From a virus, in IMG/VR virus record IMGVR_UViG_3300025122_000102, positions 1 through 29,080 of that record: a stretch of 29,080 nucleotides of DNA. One strand, given 5' to 3'. The translations under genes and the position numbers were made by a program. How positions within the stretch are numbered: position 1 is the stretch's first letter; each line of letters starts with the position of its first letter. Of this stretch, positions 1 through 11,965 are shown piece by piece. The notes under the pieces are model-generated. The model ran no database searches and was not told where the DNA came from. It saw nothing but the letters and a program-made list of their open reading frames with translations.

Positions 1-80
1 TTACCACAATACTCCTCACCTTTAATCGCTTCAACCTTGCAGGGGTTTCCCGCAACTGTCGTCCCTTTACATTTAGGCAT
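1..80 (-). CDS. Small Cys-rich zinc-ribbon-like protein (3' end outside window)
   Basis: The reading frame opens with ATG at 80 and runs off the window edge, so only the first 26 residues are visible. They begin MPKCKGTTVAGNPC and reach a third Cys at residue 25 (EYC). The pattern C4, C14, C25 resembles short phage proteins that place two Cys in a KCKGTxxxGxPC segment and finish with YCxxH, which suggests a small zinc-binding fold. The start overlaps the last 8 bases of the DNA polymerase gene, so the two are probably translationally coupled. A GGGAAC tract lies about 7 bases upstream of the ATG. The function is unknown. Confidence 0.6.
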   Translation of the reverse strand, partial: MPKCKGTTVAGNPCKVEAIKGEEYCG

Positions 81-2040
81 TCACTTGTTCCCATGTCAAT
101 TTTTTAAAACTGGCCTCACCCCATGTGCGGCCAAACTCTACGTCTACGACTACAGGTACCACGAGTTCAACTGCGTGGACCATTATTTCTTCCACCCTGC
201 GCCAGAGGCGTTCTTCTCCTATGGAGACATCCAGTTCGTCATGCATCTGGTGCATCGGCACAATGCCTTCCTCCCACATAACACGCATCGCCTTCTTGGT
301 CATATCAGCAGCGGACCCTTGAATTAAGGAGTTCAAAGCTTTATGAGTAAACGCTCGGCGCACGGGCGGTCCCCAGCGGGTCAGGGCCTCGGCACGATTG
401 GCTGCGATGCCCTTGGCCTCCCACTTGCTGCTTTCCCACCTGTTATAGCGGCACAGGCGTCCGCCTATGGTGCGTATCCAGCCCCTTTGGGCCGCGAGGT
501 TCGTACACTTGTCCATGATCCCCTGGATGAACGGAACCTTCCTGTGATACTCTTCCAGGAGCCCCTTACCCTCCGGGCCTGCCACTTCAAAGCTGCGTCC
601 AGTCCTCTCATTGGTGACTATCTCAGTCGGTAACCCAAGAGACTGACAAAGCTTTAATTCACCCATGCCATAGGCCAACCCTAGATTGATCGTTTTGGCG
701 TGAGGTTTTTCAATGTCGCACATTTCTGCCACAATTGCATGATAGCTGATGGACGGGTCTTTGTTCCATTCCTCTACAGCTTTAGAAGCACCAGCCTGTT
801 TCGTGAGTTGAGAATAGTGGAGCGTTAGTCTGGGTTCTTGATTTGCATAATCAAACGCTCCCCAGACTTCTCCGTCTTCAGGTAAAAAGATACCACGGAC
901 GAGTGGGGCGAAGACTTCATCTCTACCCGAACTTTGCTGGAGGTTGGGATTGGAACAAGAGAACCTTCCGGAAACTGTCCCACCTTTGTCACTTTTAAGG
1001 GGGTGAAGTTCGTGGTGTATCCTTCCACTTTGACCGAATTTGAGAATTTGCCCATCTATCATCGTTCCTATCGTGTTTTCTAACTGTCGTATAGTGCGGA
1101 CCATGTTGGGAAATTCATGTGCATGGCCTTCAAGAAATTCCTTAGTGAAGCTGGGCGCTTTAGTCTTCAGTGTTTTTGGGTAGGTCAGATTTTGAGAGTC
1201 AAATACCTGGGCCACACTGTCGGCTGACCAGACATCTACTTCAAACCCATATTTGCGATTAATCTCGTCAAGCATCTCCTGCTTTTGCTTGACGAGACTG
1301 GCCCTAGTTTGCTCAGCTCGATCTAAGTCGACCCGTATGCCTTTTAATCTCATTGCTATCAGCAAAGGTATCAGTGAATGCTCGAGTTCACTTAACTCGA
1401 GCAGCTTATCTTGTTCCAACTCTTTGAGTTCATAAGCTTTCAAGGCATGAAGCATATCCGCATCTTGCTCGGCGTATGGCCCAACAAATTGTGGAGGAAG
1501 ACGCCATAGGTTCTTCTTTATGTCTTTGGCTTTTTTAATTCCCCACGCCCCCGCCGCCTCTTTGAGGAGTTCTTCATCTTTCTGAACGCCAATAAAGTCC
1601 TTACCAATATTATCCAAGCTATAAGAATAACGACGTTCATCAAGGAGGGCCGCTCCGATTTGGGTGTCAAAGATGGATCCCTGTACCTTAATTCCCTCGG
1701 TCCCAAGCCATCCGATATCATAAATAGAATTATGGAATAACTTTGGTATATCTGTTTTACAAACGTCTTTAATGTATTCAACCACTCGACCTTTATCAAG
1801 ATTAGCTCCATTTTGATGCGCGATTGGTAGGTAGAATGATTCTTTCATTCTACCTTTCAACAACGATAAAGAGATACCGACGATATATCCGTCGTTGGTA
1901 GCCCATCCCGCTCCCTTCTCATCCAAGTACGGATCACGTGTCTCAGTGTCTATCCCCACAGCGTCAGCCCCCCGAAATTCAGGGAACTGATCTACCGGGG
2001 ACCACTTACTGTCCGGCTGGATCAGTGGAAGTTGGATCAT
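73..2040 (-). CDS. polA: Family A DNA polymerase with 3'-5' exonuclease domain
   Basis: Replicative DNA polymerase of the Pol I family, without a 5' nuclease domain. From ATG 2040 it has 655 residues. The exonuclease domain shows DTE (D31, E33), N104/D108 in HNSIYD, and Y189/D193 in YAEQD. The polymerase domain shows motif A DYANQEPR (D397), motif B KTINLGLAYG (K449, Y457) and motif C HDE (600-602), so both active sites look intact. The residue equivalent to E. coli Phe762 is Leu453. The frame stays open to ATG 2079, but that start would overlap the upstream HTH gene by 74 bases. No start has a convincing Shine-Dalgarno sequence, and 2040 was chosen because it leaves little sequence before the first exonuclease strand. 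As last large gene of the block, it would use any modified dNTP the block makes. Confidence 0.97.
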   Translation of the reverse strand: MIQLPLIQPDSKWSPVDQFPEFRGADAVGIDTETRDPYLDEKGAGWATNDGYIVGISLSLLKGRMKESFYLPIAHQNGANLDKGRVVEYIKDVCKTDIPKLFHNSIYDIGWLGTEGIKVQGSIFDTQIGAALLDERRYSYSLDNIGKDFIGVQKDEELLKEAAGAWGIKKAKDIKKNLWRLPPQFVGPYAEQDADMLHALKAYELKELEQDKLLELSELEHSLIPLLIAMRLKGIRVDLDRAEQTRASLVKQKQEMLDEINRKYGFEVDVWSADSVAQVFDSQNLTYPKTLKTKAPSFTKEFLEGHAHEFPNMVRTIRQLENTIGTMIDGQILKFGQSGRIHHELHPLKSDKGGTVSGRFSCSNPNLQQSSGRDEVFAPLVRGIFLPEDGEVWGAFDYANQEPRLTLHYSQLTKQAGASKAVEEWNKDPSISYHAIVAEMCDIEKPHAKTINLGLAYGMGELKLCQSLGLPTEIVTNERTGRSFEVAGPEGKGLLEEYHRKVPFIQGIMDKCTNLAAQRGWIRTIGGRLCRYNRWESSKWEAKGIAANRAEALTRWGPPVRRAFTHKALNSLIQGSAADMTKKAMRVMWEEGIVPMHQMHDELDVSIGEERLWRRVEEIMVHAVELVVPVVVDVEFGRTWGEASFKKLTWEQVNA

Positions 2041-2242
2041 TCTTTCGTCGTGTGATGGTGACTTCATATCCAAGAGCATTCGCCCAATCTATGTACTGTT
2101 GAAGAGTAATCTGTGGTTTCTTTTTAAACCATCTTTGAACTGTAGATCGACTATACCCAGTAAGTTCCTCAAGTTCGTCTCTAGTAAGATCATAGATCTT
2201 ACCTGTCTTAATGAGCGCCCACATGAGGTCACGAAATAGCAT
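2006..2242 (-). CDS. Small helix-turn-helix DNA-binding protein
   Basis: A 78-residue protein from ATG 2242. Residues 21-35 (DELEELTGYSRSTVQ) read as the two helices of a helix-turn-helix, followed by RWFKKKPQITLQQYIDWANA, as in short Cro/CI-like or HigA-like regulators. The frame extends to 2359, but ATG 2242 is preceded by an AAAGGG Shine-Dalgarno sequence 4-5 bases away, while the upstream ATGs have none. It overlaps the DUF3310 gene by 14 bases and the polymerase start by 35. It could regulate phage transcription, perhaps at the palindrome near 8817-8840, but nothing in the sequence ties it to a site. Confidence 0.75.
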   Translation of the reverse strand: MLFRDLMWALIKTGKIYDLTRDELEELTGYSRSTVQRWFKKKPQITLQQYIDWANALGYEVTITRRKNDPTSTDPAGQ

Positions 2243-2889: not shown

Positions 2890-3231
2890 CTATTCTTCCC
2901 CAAATATGGTTCTAAACATGTCACTAGCAACATGGAATCTAGCTTCAGCGACCGCTGTGCTTTTTTCTAATTCAGCCATCTTTGCTTCACGATTTTCCAC
3001 CAAGGCTTCACGCTCCTGATAGTGCCGAATATGGGCGTCGTCCTTTTTGGCTTGCTCTTCAAGTCTGCTTATGTCACTTTTTCTTAGTTCCGCCCTGTGC
3101 TCCAGTTCAACAATTATTCTTTCTTGCTCTTCCGCCTTTTTGCGAACAGCTACGATTCCTTCAAGCGCCGCACCCGTGAAGGTCTTTTCCTCAACGAGGG
3201 CGTCGATCGCCTCCATTACGTTGTTATCCAT
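2890..3231 (-). CDS. Coiled-coil hypothetical protein
   Basis: A 113-residue protein, mostly charged helix. Residues 28-95 carry a near-continuous run of Glu, Lys, Arg, Ala and Leu, typical of a coiled coil, and the C-terminus is VASDMFRTIFGEE. ATG 3231 overlaps the TGA of the upstream HD gene by one base (TGATG), and an AAGGA sequence sits 9 bases upstream, so it is translationally coupled to that gene. A longer frame to 3264 exists but would overlap more and has no better ribosome site. No catalytic motif is visible. It may be a scaffold or binding partner for a neighbour; that is a guess. Confidence 0.7.
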   Translation of the reverse strand: MDNNVMEAIDALVEEKTFTGAALEGIVAVRKKAEEQERIIVELEHRAELRKSDISRLEEQAKKDDAHIRHYQEREALVENREAKMAELEKSTAVAEARFHVASDMFRTIFGEE

Positions 3232-3770
3232 CACGATAGTTCCTTTCCTGTGACACAATTCCACTCCTTTTCAATAGCTCTCTGTAATTCAAAGACCAAC
3301 TGTCCATCTTTATTGGTCTTTAGGCGTTTTCTATATTCTGTGGTCAATTGCGCTCCTTTATGAAAAGCTTTATCAATTAAGGTGTTTCCCATGCGGCGTT
3401 CTTCCAAACACCGCATGCACAGTTCAATGTAGTCGGCGCACTTTATTTTTGCTTTCGTTTCATCATCCAAATCAAAGGAGATATCATACTTGTCCCGAAA
3501 TTCTTCTTCGACTTTGTCCGCAGCCTCTTTAACAGCAGGGGAATGATACTTAACCGGAGCAGGAATGTCCCCAGTCCAAAACTCAGCGCAGTCATGATAA
3601 AGACAAGCCACCAAGGCCGGGCCGACATCATCAGGCCAAAGAATATTATAAACCACAGCGACACCCCAAGAGTGAGCCGCAACATCTTGCGAGCGAATGA
3701 GAGGAATTGTGTGGTATCGCGATACATTTCCACCGCTCCTAATCTTCTGCAACCGTTCGAATTTTTCCAT
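3231..3770 (-). CDS. HD-domain phosphohydrolase, YfbR-like (5'-deoxynucleotidase or dNTPase)
   Basis: A 179-residue HD-superfamily enzyme. The metal and catalytic residues are in place: H33 in DVAAHSWGVA, H59-D60, E63, D68 in TGDIPAPVKY, and D113 in KCADYIE. E. coli YfbR has the same spacing (H33, H68-D69, E72, D77, D137) and removes phosphate from deoxynucleoside monophosphates. Phage members such as DatZ act on dATP instead. R18 is kept, but the base-contacting Trp19 of YfbR is Tyr here, so nucleotide preference cannot be read from sequence. Next to a thymidylate-synthase-family gene, a likely job is shaping the dNTP pool. It overlaps the upstream gene by 32 bases and has AGGA about 10 bases before its ATG. 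Confidence 0.88.
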   Translation of the reverse strand: MEKFERLQKIRSGGNVSRYHTIPLIRSQDVAAHSWGVAVVYNILWPDDVGPALVACLYHDCAEFWTGDIPAPVKYHSPAVKEAADKVEEEFRDKYDISFDLDDETKAKIKCADYIELCMRCLEERRMGNTLIDKAFHKGAQLTTEYRKRLKTNKDGQLVFELQRAIEKEWNCVTGKELS

Positions 3771-4770
3771 CTCTTTTTTCCTGCCTCCTTAGCAGCCATT
3801 CACGACATGCACGACGCCAATCTGAAGCCGTAATGCGATTGCAAGTTGCGATCGCATCAGGGTATTTCTTTTCTTTATATTGATCCCAAGCCATAGCCAT
3901 AGGTTGAACCACATCACAGAAGAAAGAATTTTTAAGTCCCCCCACCCAAGGATCATACATGAATTTATCCAAGTCCATTCGCCAAGCATTAGGCTCAGTG
4001 ACGAGTGGGATCGTGCTCACTTGGTCTAAGTCATACGGATCCATTGGGTGAGGGTCGGGAACTCCCATTTTCTCCATCACATCAGAATAAGCGTGATAGT
4101 TATTGGAAACTTGATAGTAAGTTCCAATTCCAACTCCAAGTTGGGATGCAATGTATTCTTGCAGTATTGACATATGAACAGCGTTCGCGCCATAGGCTCC
4201 CCAGATGATGTCGTTGGATCGATTAAACACTGTCATGTCCAAAACATTTTCTTGAATACGAAACGCAATAGACAAATTGCAAGGGAAGTCTTTACCTTCT
4301 GCTCCTAAATCTTCAGAAGGATCCCACATCTGCAATACAGCTCGCCGACTTTTTGGATCATTTCGTAAATGAACAATCAAGGCTGTTATCTGATCTAATG
4401 GTTGATGAGTTACAGGAACGCCTCTAGGCTCTTGCTGAAACCAGAAACGCCATCGATATCCATAGGCTCCATGAAAGGTGACGCCATCATCACTAAACTG
4501 ATAAAAAGTGCTATTGTATTTTCCGATCCATTCTGCATCATTACGCCCCGCCAACATCCACAGGGCTTCCATCAAATGAAAAAATGGATTACAGTCACGA
4601 CGGACATTAAATAGCACCCGCTCCCAGGGTCGTGTATAAACGGTGGTGACTGGATAGGGCATGACGATTGCCGGTGCAAAACGAGTTTCTTCTTCCACCC
4701 CTTTCGCCGCCAGCAAATTCATACCCACGGCATAGGCTTCATTCACATTTCGTGCCACTATTACTCTCAC
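3739..4770 (-). CDS. Thymidylate synthase family enzyme (dTMP synthase or dUMP/dCMP hydroxymethylase)
   Basis: A ThyA-fold enzyme that adds a one-carbon unit from methylene-tetrahydrofolate to C5 of a pyrimidine nucleotide. From GTG 4770 it has 343 residues. Visible signatures are NPFFHLMEALWMLAGRND, the SRR phosphate-binding arginines (142-143), the nucleophile Cys164 in FPCN, RSNDIIWGAYGAN (184-196) and SNNYHAY. Asn196 sits where ThyA has Asn177, which favours a uracil substrate over cytosine. ThyA relatives of this phage type include hydroxymethylases that make 5-hydroxymethyl-dUMP, so the product may be dTMP or hmdUMP. GTG 4770 overlaps the previous TGA (GTGA) and has TTGGAG 8 bases upstream; the frame open to 4824 has no ribosome site. 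Confidence 0.9.
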   Translation of the reverse strand: MRVIVARNVNEAYAVGMNLLAAKGVEEETRFAPAIVMPYPVTTVYTRPWERVLFNVRRDCNPFFHLMEALWMLAGRNDAEWIGKYNSTFYQFSDDGVTFHGAYGYRWRFWFQQEPRGVPVTHQPLDQITALIVHLRNDPKSRRAVLQMWDPSEDLGAEGKDFPCNLSIAFRIQENVLDMTVFNRSNDIIWGAYGANAVHMSILQEYIASQLGVGIGTYYQVSNNYHAYSDVMEKMGVPDPHPMDPYDLDQVSTIPLVTEPNAWRMDLDKFMYDPWVGGLKNSFFCDVVQPMAMAWDQYKEKKYPDAIATCNRITASDWRRACREWLLRRQEKRDGKIRTVAED

Positions 4771-5165
4771 GGTGTAAACTCCAATACAGTGTCGTCTGGG
4801 CGAAGTTCCTGGGTCCACTGCCAAGAACTATTATTCACAATAATCTTATCGTATTTGTTGCTTTCCATATTACTTAATAAGATCTTTTCACTCGGCTTGT
4901 TATCTGCTTTCACTTGCGCCAGGGTGCGAATTTCACCACCAAGAAAATAGAAATTACTGGATTTAATTTCCTTACTGTCGAGTTCCTCATCTGTTCTTCC
5001 ACGAGTAGAAAATCTGAATCCATAAGGTGTCGCACCGTGTCGTTGCTTTATTCCCCTAGCCATTTCCACAGCTTTATCCACGTCCCAGCTATCAATGAAC
5101 ATGCTGCTTTGTTCAGCCACCATAGTCCCGGGACTATAGAATATTACGAAATGTTTTTCAAGCAT
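4767..5165 (-). CDS. Conserved-looking hypothetical protein in the modification block
   Basis: A 132-residue protein starting MLEKHFVIFYSPGTMVAEQ. Notable stretches are IDSWDVDKAVEMARGIKQRH, ATPYGFRFSTRGR, FYFLGGEIRTL, ILLSNMESN and NSSWQWTQELRPDDTVLEF. The alternating strands and one helix suggest a compact alpha/beta fold. I cannot name a family or see catalytic residues. The start is well supported: GGAGGAG lies 7-8 bases before ATG 5165, which overlaps the glycosyltransferase stop by 8 bases. It also overlaps the ThyA-family start by 4 bases, so it is locked between the two enzymes and probably acts with one of them. Confidence 0.75.
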   Translation of the reverse strand: MLEKHFVIFYSPGTMVAEQSSMFIDSWDVDKAVEMARGIKQRHGATPYGFRFSTRGRTDEELDSKEIKSSNFYFLGGEIRTLAQVKADNKPSEKILLSNMESNKYDKIIVNNSSWQWTQELRPDDTVLEFTP

Positions 5166-6447
5166 TAAAAAACTCCTCCATGTATTGGTTACTCTTGTCG
5201 GCCAATTCCTGACTGAATTGACCGATATCCCTCTCCTTTTTGTAGACGCCCGAAGGGCGACCTTCTGCCATGTCAATAAAGTGCTGGGCTACGACGCGGT
5301 TATCCCACAGTCGAGCAATCTTGCGCCCTTCTTCCAACATGTCGTTAAAGGTATTCTCACCCATATTCATAGTGTCGTCCACAATTTCAGCAAATTCCAG
5401 GGGTGCCGCGTTCCAAGGCACCATCACAAAGTTCTTTCCAGCTTTGAAGAACTCACCATCTCCACCCTCTGGGCCAGCAATCCCCTGATCCCGCGCTATG
5501 GGGATAGCACCATTAATAAGAGCATCAATGCTAACTCTATTGGGGTGATCACCGTATGCCCCAAACTTTTTTGACCAAGACGGATCAATAAGGAATCTCG
5601 TGTTGTCCAGACACATTTCTCGTTCTGCGTTTTGAATGTACCCCAAGTATTCAAGCCCGGCCTCAATTGCTTTATCCCATATTTTATCACCATTTTCGTC
5701 CAAATACTCCGGCTTGACCTTATCGTCGCTGTTCATGTAGTACCATTGGATACCTCCACCTGCTATGACCATAGTCTGACAAGCTTTCATGTGGGGCACG
5801 GCACGAATAAGATCGTCAACGTGTTTCCATCCTTTAAAGGTCTGTAGGGAAAACCAACCCTTCTCACGATCCCTAAACTTGGGACCGTGACGTTTATCTT
5901 GATCAGCCTGGGAGGTAAAGAACAAAGCACGGGGAATGTCTATGTTAGCCAAAGAGTGATAACCACAAGGATGAGTAGCCCCAATGCCCACAAGGTGATG
6001 TCTAACGGCATAGAGCCAAGGATAGCGAGCAGGAAAATTGCCATCATGAACATAGGCAATTTGTTTGACGGGAACATTATACAACTCCAACCACTCACTA
6101 TTTCCTCGGTTTTTCTTATTCTTAGAGGGAACAGGAATTTGCCAAATAATAAGATCATACTTTATAGCGGTGTCTTTCCATCGCTGTAAATTCCTCGCTC
6201 CTTTATAAGGAATCACATTCTTATTCGGCCAGACCCAACCTTTCCGTTGGTTCATCCAGAATCCCTGCTTACCTTTTTCAAGGCCATCGTAAGAATTGGG
6301 GCCTCTGCCGTTATGGGTGATTTTCCACACCAGCTTTACAACGTCTACTTCGTGCCCAAGTTCCTGGAACCCAGCATAAAGATCTTCCTGATTGTTGATG
6401 ATACCACCTAGATCCATTAGGTCGTGGAACGCTATTAGAATTTTCAT
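5158..6447 (-). CDS. GT-B fold glycosyltransferase (GT4-like)
   Basis: A 429-residue protein with a two-domain GT-B layout. The N-terminal half starts MKILIAFHDLMDLGGIINNQ, resembling the Gly-rich acceptor loop of GT4 enzymes. The C-terminal half has SLQTFKGWKHVDDLIRAVPHM, a strand MVIAGGG, LEYLGYIQ, and RVSIDALINGAIPIARDQG, matching the nucleotide-sugar-binding end of GT4-type enzymes. Donor and acceptor are unknown. Its place between DNA-modification genes suggests it may glycosylate a modified base, but phage glycosyltransferases can also act on host surface sugars. ATG 6447 overlaps the upstream TGA (ATGA), with AAGG about 9 bases before it. Confidence 0.85.
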   Translation of the reverse strand: MKILIAFHDLMDLGGIINNQEDLYAGFQELGHEVDVVKLVWKITHNGRGPNSYDGLEKGKQGFWMNQRKGWVWPNKNVIPYKGARNLQRWKDTAIKYDLIIWQIPVPSKNKKNRGNSEWLELYNVPVKQIAYVHDGNFPARYPWLYAVRHHLVGIGATHPCGYHSLANIDIPRALFFTSQADQDKRHGPKFRDREKGWFSLQTFKGWKHVDDLIRAVPHMKACQTMVIAGGGIQWYYMNSDDKVKPEYLDENGDKIWDKAIEAGLEYLGYIQNAEREMCLDNTRFLIDPSWSKKFGAYGDHPNRVSIDALINGAIPIARDQGIAGPEGGDGEFFKAGKNFVMVPWNAAPLEFAEIVDDTMNMGENTFNDMLEEGRKIARLWDNRVVAQHFIDMAEGRPSGVYKKERDIGQFSQELADKSNQYMEEFFNA

Positions 6448-6704
6448 TCTTCTACCTTTTCATAAGTCATTTCAAATACATCCGGTTTGCAAGGGTAGAA
6501 TTCTCCTTTTATACCTTTAATAATCCAGTCACCTGGAGAAACAAAATGATCTCCTTCCAAAGTAGTAATCACAATTCCAGTATCATCCCCAGACCAATTA
6601 ATAAAGTCTCCAAAGAAACGATGAAGATCATCAACTTCATCTTCATTGCTTCCAACACAAAGTTGAATTGCGTCGACTATTACCGGCTTTTTTCTAACTT
6701 TCAT
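6444..6704 (-). CDS. Conserved phage hypothetical protein (PGDWIIKG family)
   Basis: An 86-residue protein that opens MKVRKKPVIVDAIQL and ends TTLEGDHFVSPGDWIIKG followed by GEFYPCKPDVFEMTYE. This end is a very common phage signature whose role is not established. It probably forms a small beta barrel. GGAG lies about 10 bases before its ATG. It is joined to the glycosyltransferase by an ATGA overlap and separated from the CxxCxxCC gene by 3 bases. Confidence 0.8.
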   Translation of the reverse strand: MKVRKKPVIVDAIQLCVGSNEDEVDDLHRFFGDFINWSGDDTGIVITTLEGDHFVSPGDWIIKGIKGEFYPCKPDVFEMTYEKVEE

Positions 6705-6707
6705 TAT

Positions 6708-7217
6708 TCAATTCTCCGAATTGGATAAAAGATTTCTTGCTGCATCTAGATAAGATTTCGTGTTATTCAGGTAATTTTTCAGTATCTCAGTAGCCACTTC
6801 ATCGATGCCTATGGCGTCGGGGTTTAATTTCATGGTGCCGTCTCGTATGACTCTCAAAGCTGTCCACAGTATTGTGTCATCCCTAGTGTTGAATTTAGGT
6901 GTCCAAGATCGATAGACCTCGGCCATATGTTCTCGTGGCTCGATGAAGTCTAGCTGAAGCAGGGAGTATATGCGGCAATCATAGATGCGGCACTGTTCAG
7001 GGCGGATGCTGTACCTAGTACATTTTTCATCTTCTAAAAATGAACAACATCCGTTTTTGTCGGCTTCATACACTTGACCATCGTCAAGTGTAAGAATCCC
7101 TCCTTGTTTGCAACATTCATTGCAGTCTCCGCAGGGCACCTTGGCTGTCTTGTCAAGGCGCTTCATCCGAGCGATGTATTGCCGGAACCATGTTGTCGGG
7201 GAGCCCCATTTACGCAT
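6708..7217 (-). CDS. CxxCxxCC-type (YkgJ-like) zinc/iron-chelating protein
   Basis: A 169-residue protein with PCGDCNECC (C29, C32, C35, C36), then GCCSF (C57, C58), C66, and PEQCRIYDCR (C76, C81). This is the spacing of the YkgJ/UPF0153 CxxCxxCC family, which is predicted to bind zinc or an iron-sulfur cluster. The IRPEQCRIYDCR segment is its second hallmark. The C-terminal half is helical with no known motif. The biochemical role of the family is not settled. In this operon a redox or metal-dependent step in base modification is possible but not shown. Its start overlaps the upstream small gene by 8 bases and lacks a clear Shine-Dalgarno sequence, consistent with coupling. Confidence 0.85.
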   Translation of the reverse strand: MRKWGSPTTWFRQYIARMKRLDKTAKVPCGDCNECCKQGGILTLDDGQVYEADKNGCCSFLEDEKCTRYSIRPEQCRIYDCRIYSLLQLDFIEPREHMAEVYRSWTPKFNTRDDTILWTALRVIRDGTMKLNPDAIGIDEVATEILKNYLNNTKSYLDAARNLLSNSEN

Positions 7218-7389
7218 CTGAATTATGAGGTCCTATATCCTTTAGCCGGAGTTCATATATTCGGCCATCATGGTCAAAAGTTAAGTCCATTTCACCTGTT
7301 TCTAGATCTATTCCTCCGCCATGCCAGTTAAGATTTTCTGAATTATTGATAAATTTGTCAAATAAGTGTCGAATTTCAAGTTGGTCCAT
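7210..7389 (-). CDS. Small acidic hypothetical protein (59 residues)
   Basis: A short gene filling what would otherwise be a gap. ATG 7389 overlaps the TAA of the upstream gene by one base (TAATG) and has AGGAG 9 bases upstream, so translation is well supported. The product begins MDQLEIRHLFDKFINN and contains LNWHGGGIDLETGEMDLTFD, then RIYELRLKDIG. The strand-rich middle suggests a small beta sheet. No family is recognised. It sits between the aGPT-type protein and the CxxCxxCC protein and is probably co-translated with both. Confidence 0.7.
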   Translation of the reverse strand: MDQLEIRHLFDKFINNSENLNWHGGGIDLETGEMDLTFDHDGRIYELRLKDIGPHNSDA

Positions 7390-8255
7390 TATTCTGTTCT
7401 CCTATATTTAGATCGTGGGCGACCTTGCCCTAGGCGAACACGTTCTTTCTTGTCATATTCGCAAAGCTGAAATTGAATGTCATGAAGTTCCAGCTTCACG
7501 TAGTCCTTAGGCCAGAAGTCAGCTCTTTGACTAAAGAGCATGATCATCTCCTCAAGGAATTTTTCCTCAGTTTGTTGGTGTTTAATCTCCCGATCAAACA
7601 CGCGATTAAGTCCACGACGAGCGCCAGGGCCAACAGGACAATAAGTGTTGCGGTCATCGCAACCATTTTTAAAAACTCCACTATTGAGCGCATCCTGCAA
7701 AATCTCCTTTGTCATGAATCCACTGCCGCCAAACCCTTGAAGTCGCCTCATTTCAGAGGCGACTGCTCTCCATGATTTTGTTTCCGCTGCCATCACTGAT
7801 AATCTATCAGATGCTCCCCAAAAAGGCTGTAAAAAATAATCCACAACGACTTCCTCCTTAGGAAGACTCAAGCCTTGATTGGTGATTACATAGGCACCTG
7901 TGAACACTCGTTGCTTGCTAGAGAGTCTTTCTCTAGCAATCTGCTTAATATCGCTACGAACCGCTGCTGATCCAAATTCAGTCTGCCATCCAATAGCCTG
8001 AGCAAACTCAGTTGTTCCAAAATATCGGAACAATGCACAATTGAACAATATCTCAGCCGAATGCCGATTGGCATTCGGCTTAGTCCAATTGTCGCGCATC
8101 CATCGAGTTGTGCGATCATGTTCACGTTTCACGTTTGTGAATTTGTAGGTACGCAGAATTTCATCCTGCGTCCAGGGCCAAGGCGATCCGGCTTCCTTAA
8201 GAAACCGGATGGACTCTCGTTCTTTCATAAATGCATAGAACTCCTTGGTCCTCAT
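7389..8255 (-). CDS. aGPT-pyrophosphorylase / 5-hmdU DNA kinase helical-domain family protein
   Basis: A 288-residue helical protein of the family defined in phages with hypermodified thymine. Its members process 5-hydroxymethyluracil in DNA after phosphorylation. Signatures in order: FMKERESIRFLKEAGSPWPW, YKFTNVKREHDRTTRW (37-52), FTGAY (118-122), LQGFGGSGFMTKEILQD (172-188, like the helix-hairpin-helix of DNA glycosylases), GPGARRGLNRVF (209-220) and DIQFQLCEYDKKER (259-272). No Walker A is present, so it is not itself the kinase. The frame opens to 8327, but ATG 8255 has GGAAGG 8 bases upstream. It is the first gene after an intrinsic terminator, so its expression probably depends on read-through or a local promoter. 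Confidence 0.85.
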   Translation of the reverse strand: MRTKEFYAFMKERESIRFLKEAGSPWPWTQDEILRTYKFTNVKREHDRTTRWMRDNWTKPNANRHSAEILFNCALFRYFGTTEFAQAIGWQTEFGSAAVRSDIKQIARERLSSKQRVFTGAYVITNQGLSLPKEEVVVDYFLQPFWGASDRLSVMAAETKSWRAVASEMRRLQGFGGSGFMTKEILQDALNSGVFKNGCDDRNTYCPVGPGARRGLNRVFDREIKHQQTEEKFLEEMIMLFSQRADFWPKDYVKLELHDIQFQLCEYDKKERVRLGQGRPRSKYRRTE

Positions 8256-8270
8256 TAATTCAACCTTCCA

Positions 8271-8316
8271 CAAAAAAGTACGCGGATGGAACAGGGGGGG
8301 ACGAGTTCCATCCGCG
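8271..8316 (-). terminator. Intrinsic terminator just before the modification block
   Basis: A perfect 12-bp inverted repeat (8281-8292 with 8305-8316, CGCGGATGGAAC and its complement) around a 12-base C-rich loop. On the minus strand it is followed by TAC and six T residues (8277-8272). Stem strength and T tract fit a Rho-independent terminator for rightmost-to-left transcription. It ends only 16 bases before ATG 8255, so it can act as an attenuator for the block below. Confidence 0.8.
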
Positions 8317-8354
8317 CGTCGCTCCATACCGGGGACGATATAAGAACGACTCCC

Positions 8355-10248: not shown

Positions 10249-10308
10249 GCCCGCCGTAAGGGCACCCTGTACCTGTTCTAATAGGTATGTTGTTTTGCCA
10301 GTACCTAG

Positions 10309-10368
10309 TTATGGTGGCCCCAGGACAATCTCTGGCGAGAATCCTGGGGCCTGATCTCCTTTATTCAT
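10309..10368 (-). pseudogene. Detached N-terminus of the UvrD-like helicase
   Basis: ATG 10368 opens a frame reading MNKGDQAPGFSPEIVLGPP and then TAA. Two codons later (TAA CTA) the frame resumes with GTGKTT and runs into the helicase body. Without those 6 bases the motif would be GPPGTGKTT, a perfect Walker A. A TTG at 10398 could start a longer form with ASQLWKKI before the same methionine. The piece itself is too short to function. Confidence 0.7.
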
Positions 10369-10441: not shown

Positions 10442-11965
10442 TCATAACACGTCACCTTTCATCTGGGGGAGTTTAAACGGTTCTATCTGGGCCTCTGGTT
10501 CAGGGATGTGCCAAAGGTTCACACCTCGGCCAGCTACTCTCATAAACAGGTTTTCGGCACCGATATTGTTCAGGCGGGATGTGATCTGGGTGCGCGAATA
10601 ATATTTAAATCCATTGCGTACTAGAAATTCTTCTATATCTCTTAGCCTGAAGTGAACCCTGGCTTCACCATCGACTTCAGATGTCCAAGGACGACCTAGA
10701 AGGAGCTCGTCCTTGTCCAGGGCCTTTAGGCGTGAATCTGAACAGAAAGTGTAGAGAAGTTCCAAGAATTGATCACCTATACTGGCCCCCGGTGGAGCCG
10801 CCAGTTCCTCACACTTTTTCAGAAGTTCCCCCGAGATTAAGGACCATTTGGCTTCATTCATCATTGGAATATGTACGGTGAGGGCGTCAGCGCAAGCTTT
10901 GCGAAATAAGCGGATGTTTAGGAGTTGATCTGTACTGAGTTCTATTGTTATCTTGTTGACTTCTAGGAACCAGACTGGTTGGTCTGTTGGTAATTTTCTT
11001 AGGTTCTCTAAAGTTGGTAAGGCATCTCCACCTATACCGAATTCTGCGATTCGGCATAATTGAGAATTACAATAATTCACGATAGGCTGATCATTGCATT
11101 TGTAAGTATATGACTTTCTGCCAAGTTGCTTTGTGATTGCCTGGACTTCTTTGGACTCAAGGGGTGGCATCATATACTTGGAATTTAATTCTTCTATAAC
11201 TTTCCCCCAATCGTCAGGGTGGGCTTTTCTACAGTATACTCCTAGAGCAAAGAGCCCATTATTCCTTGTACCTTCTGGAAATCCCTGTTTGACCAAAACT
11301 TGAAGACATGGCGGGCCTCCTTTAAGATCTGGCGTCTCTATAATTACTTCAATCTTTTTCAGTTCTTCTTGTGATATTTTTACCCCATTGGCGCAAGTAA
11401 TGAATTCTTCTAATTTCATTGCTTCACCCTTCGCATTTAGGGCATACCGATTACTTTTATTTCCACCGAAATAAGGCATGTTGAGCCAATTCCCAACATC
11501 GCCTCTATCTCTTAATACTTGGCTCTGCTTCGGGAAAATTTCAGATTTACCATACCCCAAACTCGCAGCGACACTTTGTAAGGTGGATTGTAGTATGCTC
11601 GCAGCAACAGGTTCATTAAGAAAAACCGCTAAATGACATCCACCAGACTTTGTTCTCATTGGTATGAGGGGAAGATCTAAACTATATATTCTTTTAGAAA
11701 AGCCGACTATATCTAAGGTATAGTCGTCAATATCAATAACCCCCCAGACACAATTATTGTCCGTTTTAATAGGGACAATACCGAGCGCCTTACGTCCTTT
11801 TATATGAGCTTCCCACAGTGTTTCTGTTACTTCTCCCCGTATTGTTGAAGCTCTACCCTTAGCTTTTTCCCCAGGACTAACGCTGGCACCATCTAATTCA
11901 TAAATGCCGTAAGCATCTTCAGCCCCGGAGAATATTGTCATCATATCAAGCGCGAGTGACACCAT
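10442..11965 (-). CDS. Archaeo-eukaryotic-type primase / primase-polymerase (TOTE-like AEP)
   Basis: A 507-residue protein whose N-terminal 180 residues form an AEP primase domain: WGVIDIDDY with metal-binding D78 and D80, KSGGCHLAVFL with H111, EIFPKQ (142-147) and GNWLNMPYFGG. This arrangement matches the TOTE-type AEP used by phages for priming or gap-filling synthesis. The middle, GTRNNGLFALGVYCRK and PPLESKEVQAITKQLG, looks like a PriCT helical module, followed by a Cys cluster (KC, YC, LC) that may bind metal. The C-terminal 200 residues are not recognised. ATG 11965 has AGGAG 5 bases upstream. It lies directly after a strong hairpin and before the helicase, so it is the likely primer-maker for the PolA. 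Confidence 0.85.
   Translation of the reverse strand: MVSLALDMMTIFSGAEDAYGIYELDGASVSPGEKAKGRASTIRGEVTETLWEAHIKGRKALGIVPIKTDNNCVWGVIDIDDYTLDIVGFSKRIYSLDLPLIPMRTKSGGCHLAVFLNEPVAASILQSTLQSVAASLGYGKSEIFPKQSQVLRDRGDVGNWLNMPYFGGNKSNRYALNAKGEAMKLEEFITCANGVKISQEELKKIEVIIETPDLKGGPPCLQVLVKQGFPEGTRNNGLFALGVYCRKAHPDDWGKVIEELNSKYMMPPLESKEVQAITKQLGRKSYTYKCNDQPIVNYCNSQLCRIAEFGIGGDALPTLENLRKLPTDQPVWFLEVNKITIELSTDQLLNIRLFRKACADALTVHIPMMNEAKWSLISGELLKKCEELAAPPGASIGDQFLELLYTFCSDSRLKALDKDELLLGRPWTSEVDGEARVHFRLRDIEEFLVRNGFKYYSRTQITSRLNNIGAENLFMRVAGRGVNLWHIPEPEAQIEPFKLPQMKGDVL

Follow-up and report, generated by a model that had tools for sequence, protein, structure and literature searches.

The virus fragment IMGVR_UViG_3300025122_000102, a linear stretch of 29,080 bp that was analyzed at its full length and is called the window below, carries a gene cassette that we predict to place a sugar on thymine-derived bases in phage DNA. 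Read along the minus strand, the genes come in the order primase, UvrD helicase, HMUDK_hel, CxxCxxCC-like protein, an 86-amino-acid (86-aa) protein, glycosyltransferase (GT), a 169-aa open reading frame (ORF), ThyA, HD, small ORFs, and PolA. An initial annotation, made from the sequence alone, had described an overlapping operon; the cassette genes mostly overlap, with the overlap broken by a single 171-bp gap at 7218-7388, and all lie on the minus strand. The genes on which the prediction turns are the following:

7389..8327, minus strand: HMUDK_hel protein (PF18723, helical partner of the 5-hydroxymethyldeoxyuridine [5hmdU] DNA kinase; predicted all-alpha fold, possibly DNA-glycosylase-like), from the PF18723 profile, an AlphaFold2 (AF2) model, and VIA-align
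5158..6447, minus strand: GT-B glycosyltransferase, occupying the slot that separates HMUDK_hel from ThyA, from an AF2 model, structural matches, a relative passing PF00534, and locus context
3739..4824, minus strand: ThyA-family enzyme, predicted deoxyuridine monophosphate (dUMP) hydroxymethylase, from PF00303, residues, and kinship to M6-type enzymes
3231..3770, minus strand: YfbR-like HD 5'-deoxynucleotidase, from PF12917 (70.9 bits); syntenic with M6 gp59
73..2079, minus strand: family A DNA polymerase (PolA), the conserved cassette end, from PF00476 (E = 6e-41)

The initial annotation had proposed a ThyA-family enzyme, an HD phosphohydrolase, and a downstream PolA, and profile searches recovered all three. 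ThyA matched PF00303 (84.3 bits, E = 1e-23) and was 43 to 45% identical to M6-type enzymes; the residues first reported as Cys164 and Asn196 are the catalytic Cys182 and the base-selecting Asn214 when numbered from the TTG start. For the residue alignment we used a sequence which we take to be that of Escherichia coli thymidylate synthase (TS) and which agrees with the PDB alignment. By its numbering, Cys146 and Asn177 were kept in every ThyA copy with a readable residue (148 of 148, kinase and GT loci together). No copy retained Trp80 or Leu143, described as critical for hydride transfer (Fritz 2002, as cited in PMC6841964), and both are likewise replaced in M6 and MilA; Leu143 had always become Asp, and the window protein has Tyr in place of Trp80. 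The best NCBIfam TS score was 88.8 bits against a cut-off of 174.6, and the protein fell below all TS cut-offs. Its nearest PDB sequence was the hydroxymethylase MilA (E = 6e-21, versus 1.6e-14 for E. coli TS). MilA, which acts on cytidine monophosphate, and the deoxycytidine monophosphate (dCMP) hydroxymethylase of T4 both have Asp at the base-selecting site; because the window protein has Asn there, its substrate should be of the uracil type. These sequence comparisons indicate that ThyA is probably a dUMP hydroxymethylase.

A profile search of the protein at 7389-8255 had been named initially as the check on its family assignment; the ORF, extended to 7389-8327, scored 127.5 bits against PF18723 (cut-off, 25; E = 8e-37; residues 28-299). 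This family, also named aGPT-Pplase clade 1, marks gp55 of phage M6, in which gp54 is the P-loop kinase (PF18748) and gp51 the amino acid:DNA transferase (ADDT; PF18724). Since PF18723 marks gp55 and PF18724 marks gp51, the window protein is of the gp55 type and is not the amino acid:DNA transferase. The part of the initial assignment that named a 5hmdU helical protein stands, as the helical partner of the kinase; the protein is not the aminoacyl or putrescinyl transferase, which belongs to PF18724 (not found). PF18723 forms a separate protein in Ab18 (a relative of PaMx11), CBA120, and PhiW-14, and a search for fusions of HMUDK_hel with a GT or kinase, which would show physical partnership, found none. 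The AF2 model of HMUDK_hel (pLDDT, 96.1) matched PaMx11 gp46, a 5-PmdU glycinyltransferase (8z2n), best in VIA-align, with a Z of 11.2, whereas values below about 13 call for caution with helical proteins; helix-hairpin-helix DNA glycosylases (Z of 7 to 10, also below that level) and a DUF2419 queuine enzyme followed, and plain Foldseek returned no match. The model suggests a base-handling fold. About 40 invariant residues are common to the HMUDK_hel proteins of the kinase and GT classes.

The glycosyltransferase at 5158-6447 on its own had no match in Pfam, PHROG, or NCBIfam, no meaningful match among PDB sequences, and none in the phage collection. A relative with 42% identity passes PF00534, and the AF2 model (pLDDT, 92.9) aligned with many GT-B enzymes at VIA Z scores of 20 to 27, so that the protein, judged by its model, is clearly a GT-B enzyme, as initially annotated. 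The top VIA-align matches were T4 alpha-glucosyltransferase with DNA (Z of 26.6 and 26.4), a structure solved with DNA containing 5-hydroxymethyluracil (5hmU), tied with TarM, PimA, and HepE; phmmer gave no match to T4 alpha-glucosyltransferase among PDB sequences. Both HMUDK_hel and ThyA lay within 4.5 kb in 49 of the 57 loci with this GT. In a genome collection of 84,980 species, the GT was found on two short contigs of Bacteroidota metagenome-assembled genomes (MAGs) only, both with the full cassette, which fits a virus-specific GT.

On one contig with a homologue of this GT (L017, 10001-14741), the homologue is the immediate upstream neighbour of a DNA polymerase III alpha that ends in a domain of the uracil-DNA-glycosylase superfamily. 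This pair is preceded by two further genes, one for a B12-binding/radical-SAM protein and one for another radical-SAM-like protein.

We scanned IMG/VR with alignments of the GT and of HMUDK_hel (loci L005 to L126) and with a kinase alignment (L130 to L209); alignments served as queries because a scan with the single HMUDK_hel protein gave 1 relative. The backbone HMUDK_hel - slot - ThyA - HD - PolA was largely constant across the loci, with PolA at the equivalent position in nearly all of them. Some 50 distinct contigs carry the cassette, which excludes a chance association. Within 4.5 kb of HMUDK_hel, 71 of 169 loci had a kinase, 93 had a GT, 5 had neither, and none had both. Among the five with neither, two (L086 and L088) have the window's type of GT about 7 kb away, and L040 and L089 lie at the end of a contig or close to it. 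The slots taken by a sugar-transferase are divided among at least four unrelated glycosyltransferase families: the GT-B family of the window, TAGT (PF20691), and two further families judged to be GT-B from sequence. The accompanying genes differed as well. In most kinase loci the kinase stood just before HMUDK_hel, together with ADDT, pyridoxal phosphate (PLP), radical-SAM, or Nmad5 genes and with no GT near HMUDK_hel; an ADDT or PLP gene was present in 45 of 71 kinase loci versus 0 of 93 GT loci. Conversely, a SPASM radical-SAM protein, often carried by TAGT slots, was found in 26/93 GT loci versus 0/71 kinase loci. FkbM methyltransferases, possible sugar-tailoring enzymes, often accompanied GT-type slots (30 of the 57 loci with the window's GT, versus 1 of 71 kinase loci), as sometimes did a nucleotide-sugar epimerase.

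The two kinds of occupant have changed places repeatedly. Among 122 HMUDK_hel proteins placed on a tree, the kinase/GT state changed at least 5 times, and the slot type, with all kinds counted, 19 times. A close relative of the window (L020) has a P-loop kinase in the slot, although its HMUDK_hel, ThyA, PolA, UvrD, and primase proteins are 54 to 61% identical to those of the window. Another (L006) carries the same GT as the window (71%), and two more (L025 and L019) have TAGT in the slot and a backbone equally similar to the window's. On these sequence comparisons, kinase and sugar-transferase look interchangeable, and this replaceability is our main argument that the GT, like the kinase, would act on DNA by modifying 5hmU at its hydroxymethyl group.

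Several loci showed other slot contents or insertions. One phage locus, seen on two contigs (L171 and L178, 4319-9995), combines HMUDK_hel and a GT-B protein with a kinase-like gene and a SPASM radical-SAM protein in a span of about 6 kb, the sole mixed arrangement seen. In one slot (L030, 12848-13591), Nmad5 and TAGT are accompanied by a HAD-like protein and by a MobA-like nucleotidyltransferase that scores below the Pfam cut-off, which suggests that an activated sugar is made locally. In Acinetobacter phage nACB2 (L211, 6215-6913 and 9096-10268), HMUDK_hel is immediately preceded by a macro-domain protein, and ThyA is followed by one resembling phosphomevalonate kinase; the PF18748 profile had no match in this phage, which possibly offers a third kind of HMUDK_hel partner. 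Microbacterium phage PrincePhergus (L212, 1368-2841) pairs HMUDK_hel with another P-loop kinase family, Ploopntkinase3 (PF18751). ThyA and HD are separated by an inserted PD-(D/E)XK Cas4-like nuclease in one GT sub-group (L009-L016; e.g., L011, 12384-13085).

The absence of a P-loop kinase from the window, which the initial annotation had pointed out, was borne out by a profile search with PF18748, which found none, and by a Walker A motif scan of the window ORFs, which gave no N-terminal match and one internal match, in the primase. That annotation had advised a search of the full genome for the kinase. Its lack goes beyond the limits of the fragment: the GT occupies the slot across the clade, and PF18748 was unmatched in 56 whole contigs with this GT (14 + 42, many longer than 56 kb; relatives of 60 to 67 kb likewise lack the kinase), a check that took in the IMG/VR contigs on which the GT had been detected and part of the TAGT contigs. 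Because the GT fills the kinase slot across the clade, no kinase is to be expected in the window's phage. Searches of the GT contigs with PF18724 gave no match above threshold and one below it. A small ORF with an N-terminal Walker A motif lay within 6 kb of HMUDK_hel in 4/93 GT loci versus 55/71 kinase loci, and those of the 4 GT loci are one conserved ATPase of about 380 aa, which is not kinase-sized.

Among known systems, the 5-NedU cluster of M6 shares the order HMUDK_hel - ThyA - HD - PolA with the window (identity, 43% for ThyA and 29% for HMUDK_hel). However, M6 has a P-loop kinase (gp54), ADDT (gp51), PLP (gp52), radical-SAM (gp53), and Nmad5 (gp56) proteins, whereas all of these are missing from the window, where a GT fills the slot; what is said here of the M6 pathway follows PMC6449724, PMC5977210, and the Pfam names. 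Brevibacterium phage LuckyBarnes (NC_047851), which has been cultured, follows the same logic as the window in the order PolA - ThyA - TAGT - TAGT - HMUDK_hel, and the PF18748 kinase profile had no match in it; its GTs are TAGT, unlike the GT-B enzyme of the window. In its genome announcement, the phage was predicted to encode a dCMP hydroxymethylase together with two glycosyltransferases (PMC6588365). Since the LuckyBarnes ThyA has Asn at the base-selecting site, dUMP rather than dCMP is suggested. In pelagiphages of the HTVC023P type, TS, aG/PT-PPlase1, 5'-deoxynucleotidase, and glucosyltransferase genes were reported together and a broadened function was suggested (PMC9599517). The pelagiphage glucosyltransferase is probably TAGT and not the window's GT-B, because its annotation is the name carried by the LuckyBarnes TAGT proteins. 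The co-location is thus already on record; the available text of that report does not contain the replacement of the kinase by a GT, the several GT families, or the hydroxymethylase residues, and a partial literature search turned up no account of several GT families taking the place of the kinase, nor any of glycosylated 5hmdU in such phages.

The T4 alpha-glucosyltransferase, the best structural match, shares the GT-B fold of the window GT. T4, however, modifies 5-hydroxymethylcytosine and to our knowledge is without HMUDK_hel. Base J of kinetoplastids, for its part, is made by oxidation of T. In both base J (PMC4111573) and the glucosylated DNA of SP-15 (PMC5977210), the sugar sits on a thymine-derived 5-hydroxyalkyl group, as proposed here; SP-15 uses dihydroxypentyl-uracil, and the available text names no HMUDK_hel gene for it. 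T4 beta-glucosyltransferase can glucosylate 5hmU in DNA to give base J (PMC4111573), and TAGT is described, by annotation and synteny, as a DNA-glycosylating family in T6-like phages (PMC13390438).

Taking the gene order, residues, and structure models together, we consider that the cassette encodes phage thymine glycosylation, in which 5hmdU would enter the DNA and then be glycosylated, with a probability of roughly two in three. A sugar-bearing, thymine-derived hypermodification was the core idea of the initial annotation, and comparative genomics supports it well. To judge from its residues and kinship, the ThyA homologue would convert dUMP to 5-hydroxymethyl-dUMP, and the HD nucleotidase would probably clear competing deoxynucleoside monophosphates such as deoxythymidine monophosphate (dTMP) or similar nucleotides. 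The phage PolA would then build 5hmdU-containing DNA, and after replication the GT-B enzyme would transfer a sugar from a nucleotide-sugar to the 5-hydroxymethyl group. HMUDK_hel would most likely bind DNA and present or flip 5hmU for its catalytic partner, the P-loop kinase in M6-type phages and the glycosyltransferase here.

Some points weigh against this interpretation. The whole inference is drawn from sequence and structure models, and the loci form a similarity-based rather than a random sample. The slot is empty in L086 and L088, with the GT about 7 kb off, and the L171/L178 phage locus has a GT plus a kinase-like gene, 5.7 kb from HMUDK_hel. The fold match of HMUDK_hel stays under the caution level, and Foldseek was empty. 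GT-B folds are generic, with T4 alpha-glucosyltransferase tied with PimA, TarM, and HepE, and L017 has a homologue of this GT (39% identity) without HMUDK_hel or ThyA on the contig. Finally, PF18748 under-detects divergent kinases, scoring 15 bits for that of Ab18 and 25 bits for that of L020. This low sensitivity, the fragmentary nature of the window, and the other P-loop families that adjoin HMUDK_hel in some phages (Ploopntkinase3) would be compatible with an M6-type pathway in which a divergent or host kinase phosphorylates 5hmdU, the GT merely decorates the DNA further, and the 29-kb fragment stops short of the kinase gene. We find this distinctly unlikely given the 56 whole GT contigs without PF18748, the rarity of small Walker A ORFs in GT loci, and the lack of ADDT and PLP partners there.

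It also appears unlikely that the GT merely shares the operon and acts on another acceptor, such as a host envelope glycan, a virion protein, or a free nucleotide. Most GT-B/GT4 enzymes serve envelope or small-molecule glycosylation, in keeping with the structural ties just named, and L017 would fit such a role; yet the GT lies within 4.5 kb of HMUDK_hel and ThyA in most of its loci, exchanges in the same slot with a DNA-base kinase and TAGT-family GTs, and had its only two relatives in the genome collection within the same cassette. That ThyA makes ordinary dTMP and the DNA is unmodified, as the label thymidylate synthase given to such proteins by Pfam and phage annotators would imply, is highly improbable: Trp80 and Leu143 are replaced in all copies, the scores are well short of every NCBIfam TS equivalog cut-off, and MilA is the closest PDB sequence. 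A further alternative departs from the glycosylation pathway proposed here only in the role of HMUDK_hel, which might itself catalyze another modification, perhaps of the base or the sugar. In favour are its best structural match, a glycinyltransferase, and the invariant residues shared by the kinase and GT classes; but its partners are chemically different, so a shared recognition step fits better than one specific chemistry, and we regard this alternative as fairly unlikely.

If thymine glycosylation by this cassette is real, it would constitute a second branch of thymidine hypermodification, in which post-replicative glycosylation replaces phosphorylation and amino-acid transfer, and the protein family that at present takes its name from the kinase would gain a role independent of its partner. 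We tentatively extend this, at a little under even odds, to the proposal that HMUDK_hel is a general 5hmU-reading DNA module, not a kinase domain, whose partner can be either a P-loop kinase or any of four or more unrelated glycosyltransferases; a large, mostly uncultured phage group would then carry sugar-bearing thymines, some probably O-methylated or radical-SAM-altered, not yet chemically described. LuckyBarnes is a cultured phage in which the predicted sugar-thymine can be sought directly. Such bases would be relevant to how phages evade restriction and CRISPR, to artefacts in sequencing, and to the development of enzymes that label 5hmU in DNA.

The remaining genes of this region of the window comprise two conserved upstream neighbours and three proteins not conserved in related loci (no close DNA relatives of the window were found in the phage collection):

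8860..10248, minus strand: UvrD-like helicase, conserved upstream neighbour (PF00580, E = 7e-22)
10442..11965, minus strand: primase-like protein, conserved upstream neighbour (phrog_21866, E = 1.8e-80)
6708..7217, minus strand: CxxCxxCC-like protein, accessory, not conserved (PF03692, 18.6 bits, below the cut-off of 23)
6444..6704, minus strand: 86-aa phage protein of unknown function, not conserved (phrog_419, E = 7.6e-30)
4767..5276, minus strand: small 169-aa ORF between ThyA and the GT, not conserved, without family match in Pfam or PHROG

The UvrD-like helicase is syntenic in L006, L009, L011-L016, and L020. Upstream of the listed ORF, the minus strand at 10250-10340 reads MNKGDQAPGFSPEIVLGPP*LGTGKTT, placing an in-frame stop and one extra codon inside the Walker A motif, which is intact in L006; the stop may reflect a pseudogene, an assembly error, or readthrough. 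The true start of the ORF at 4767-5276 is probably near 5165. Homologues of the CxxCxxCC-like, 86-aa, and 169-aa proteins were searched for in the related loci, with self-matches only, and all three were dropped as pathway parts, including the CxxCxxCC protein that the initial annotation had listed in the operon. In relatives, an FkbM methyltransferase often lies near the position of the CxxCxxCC-like protein instead.

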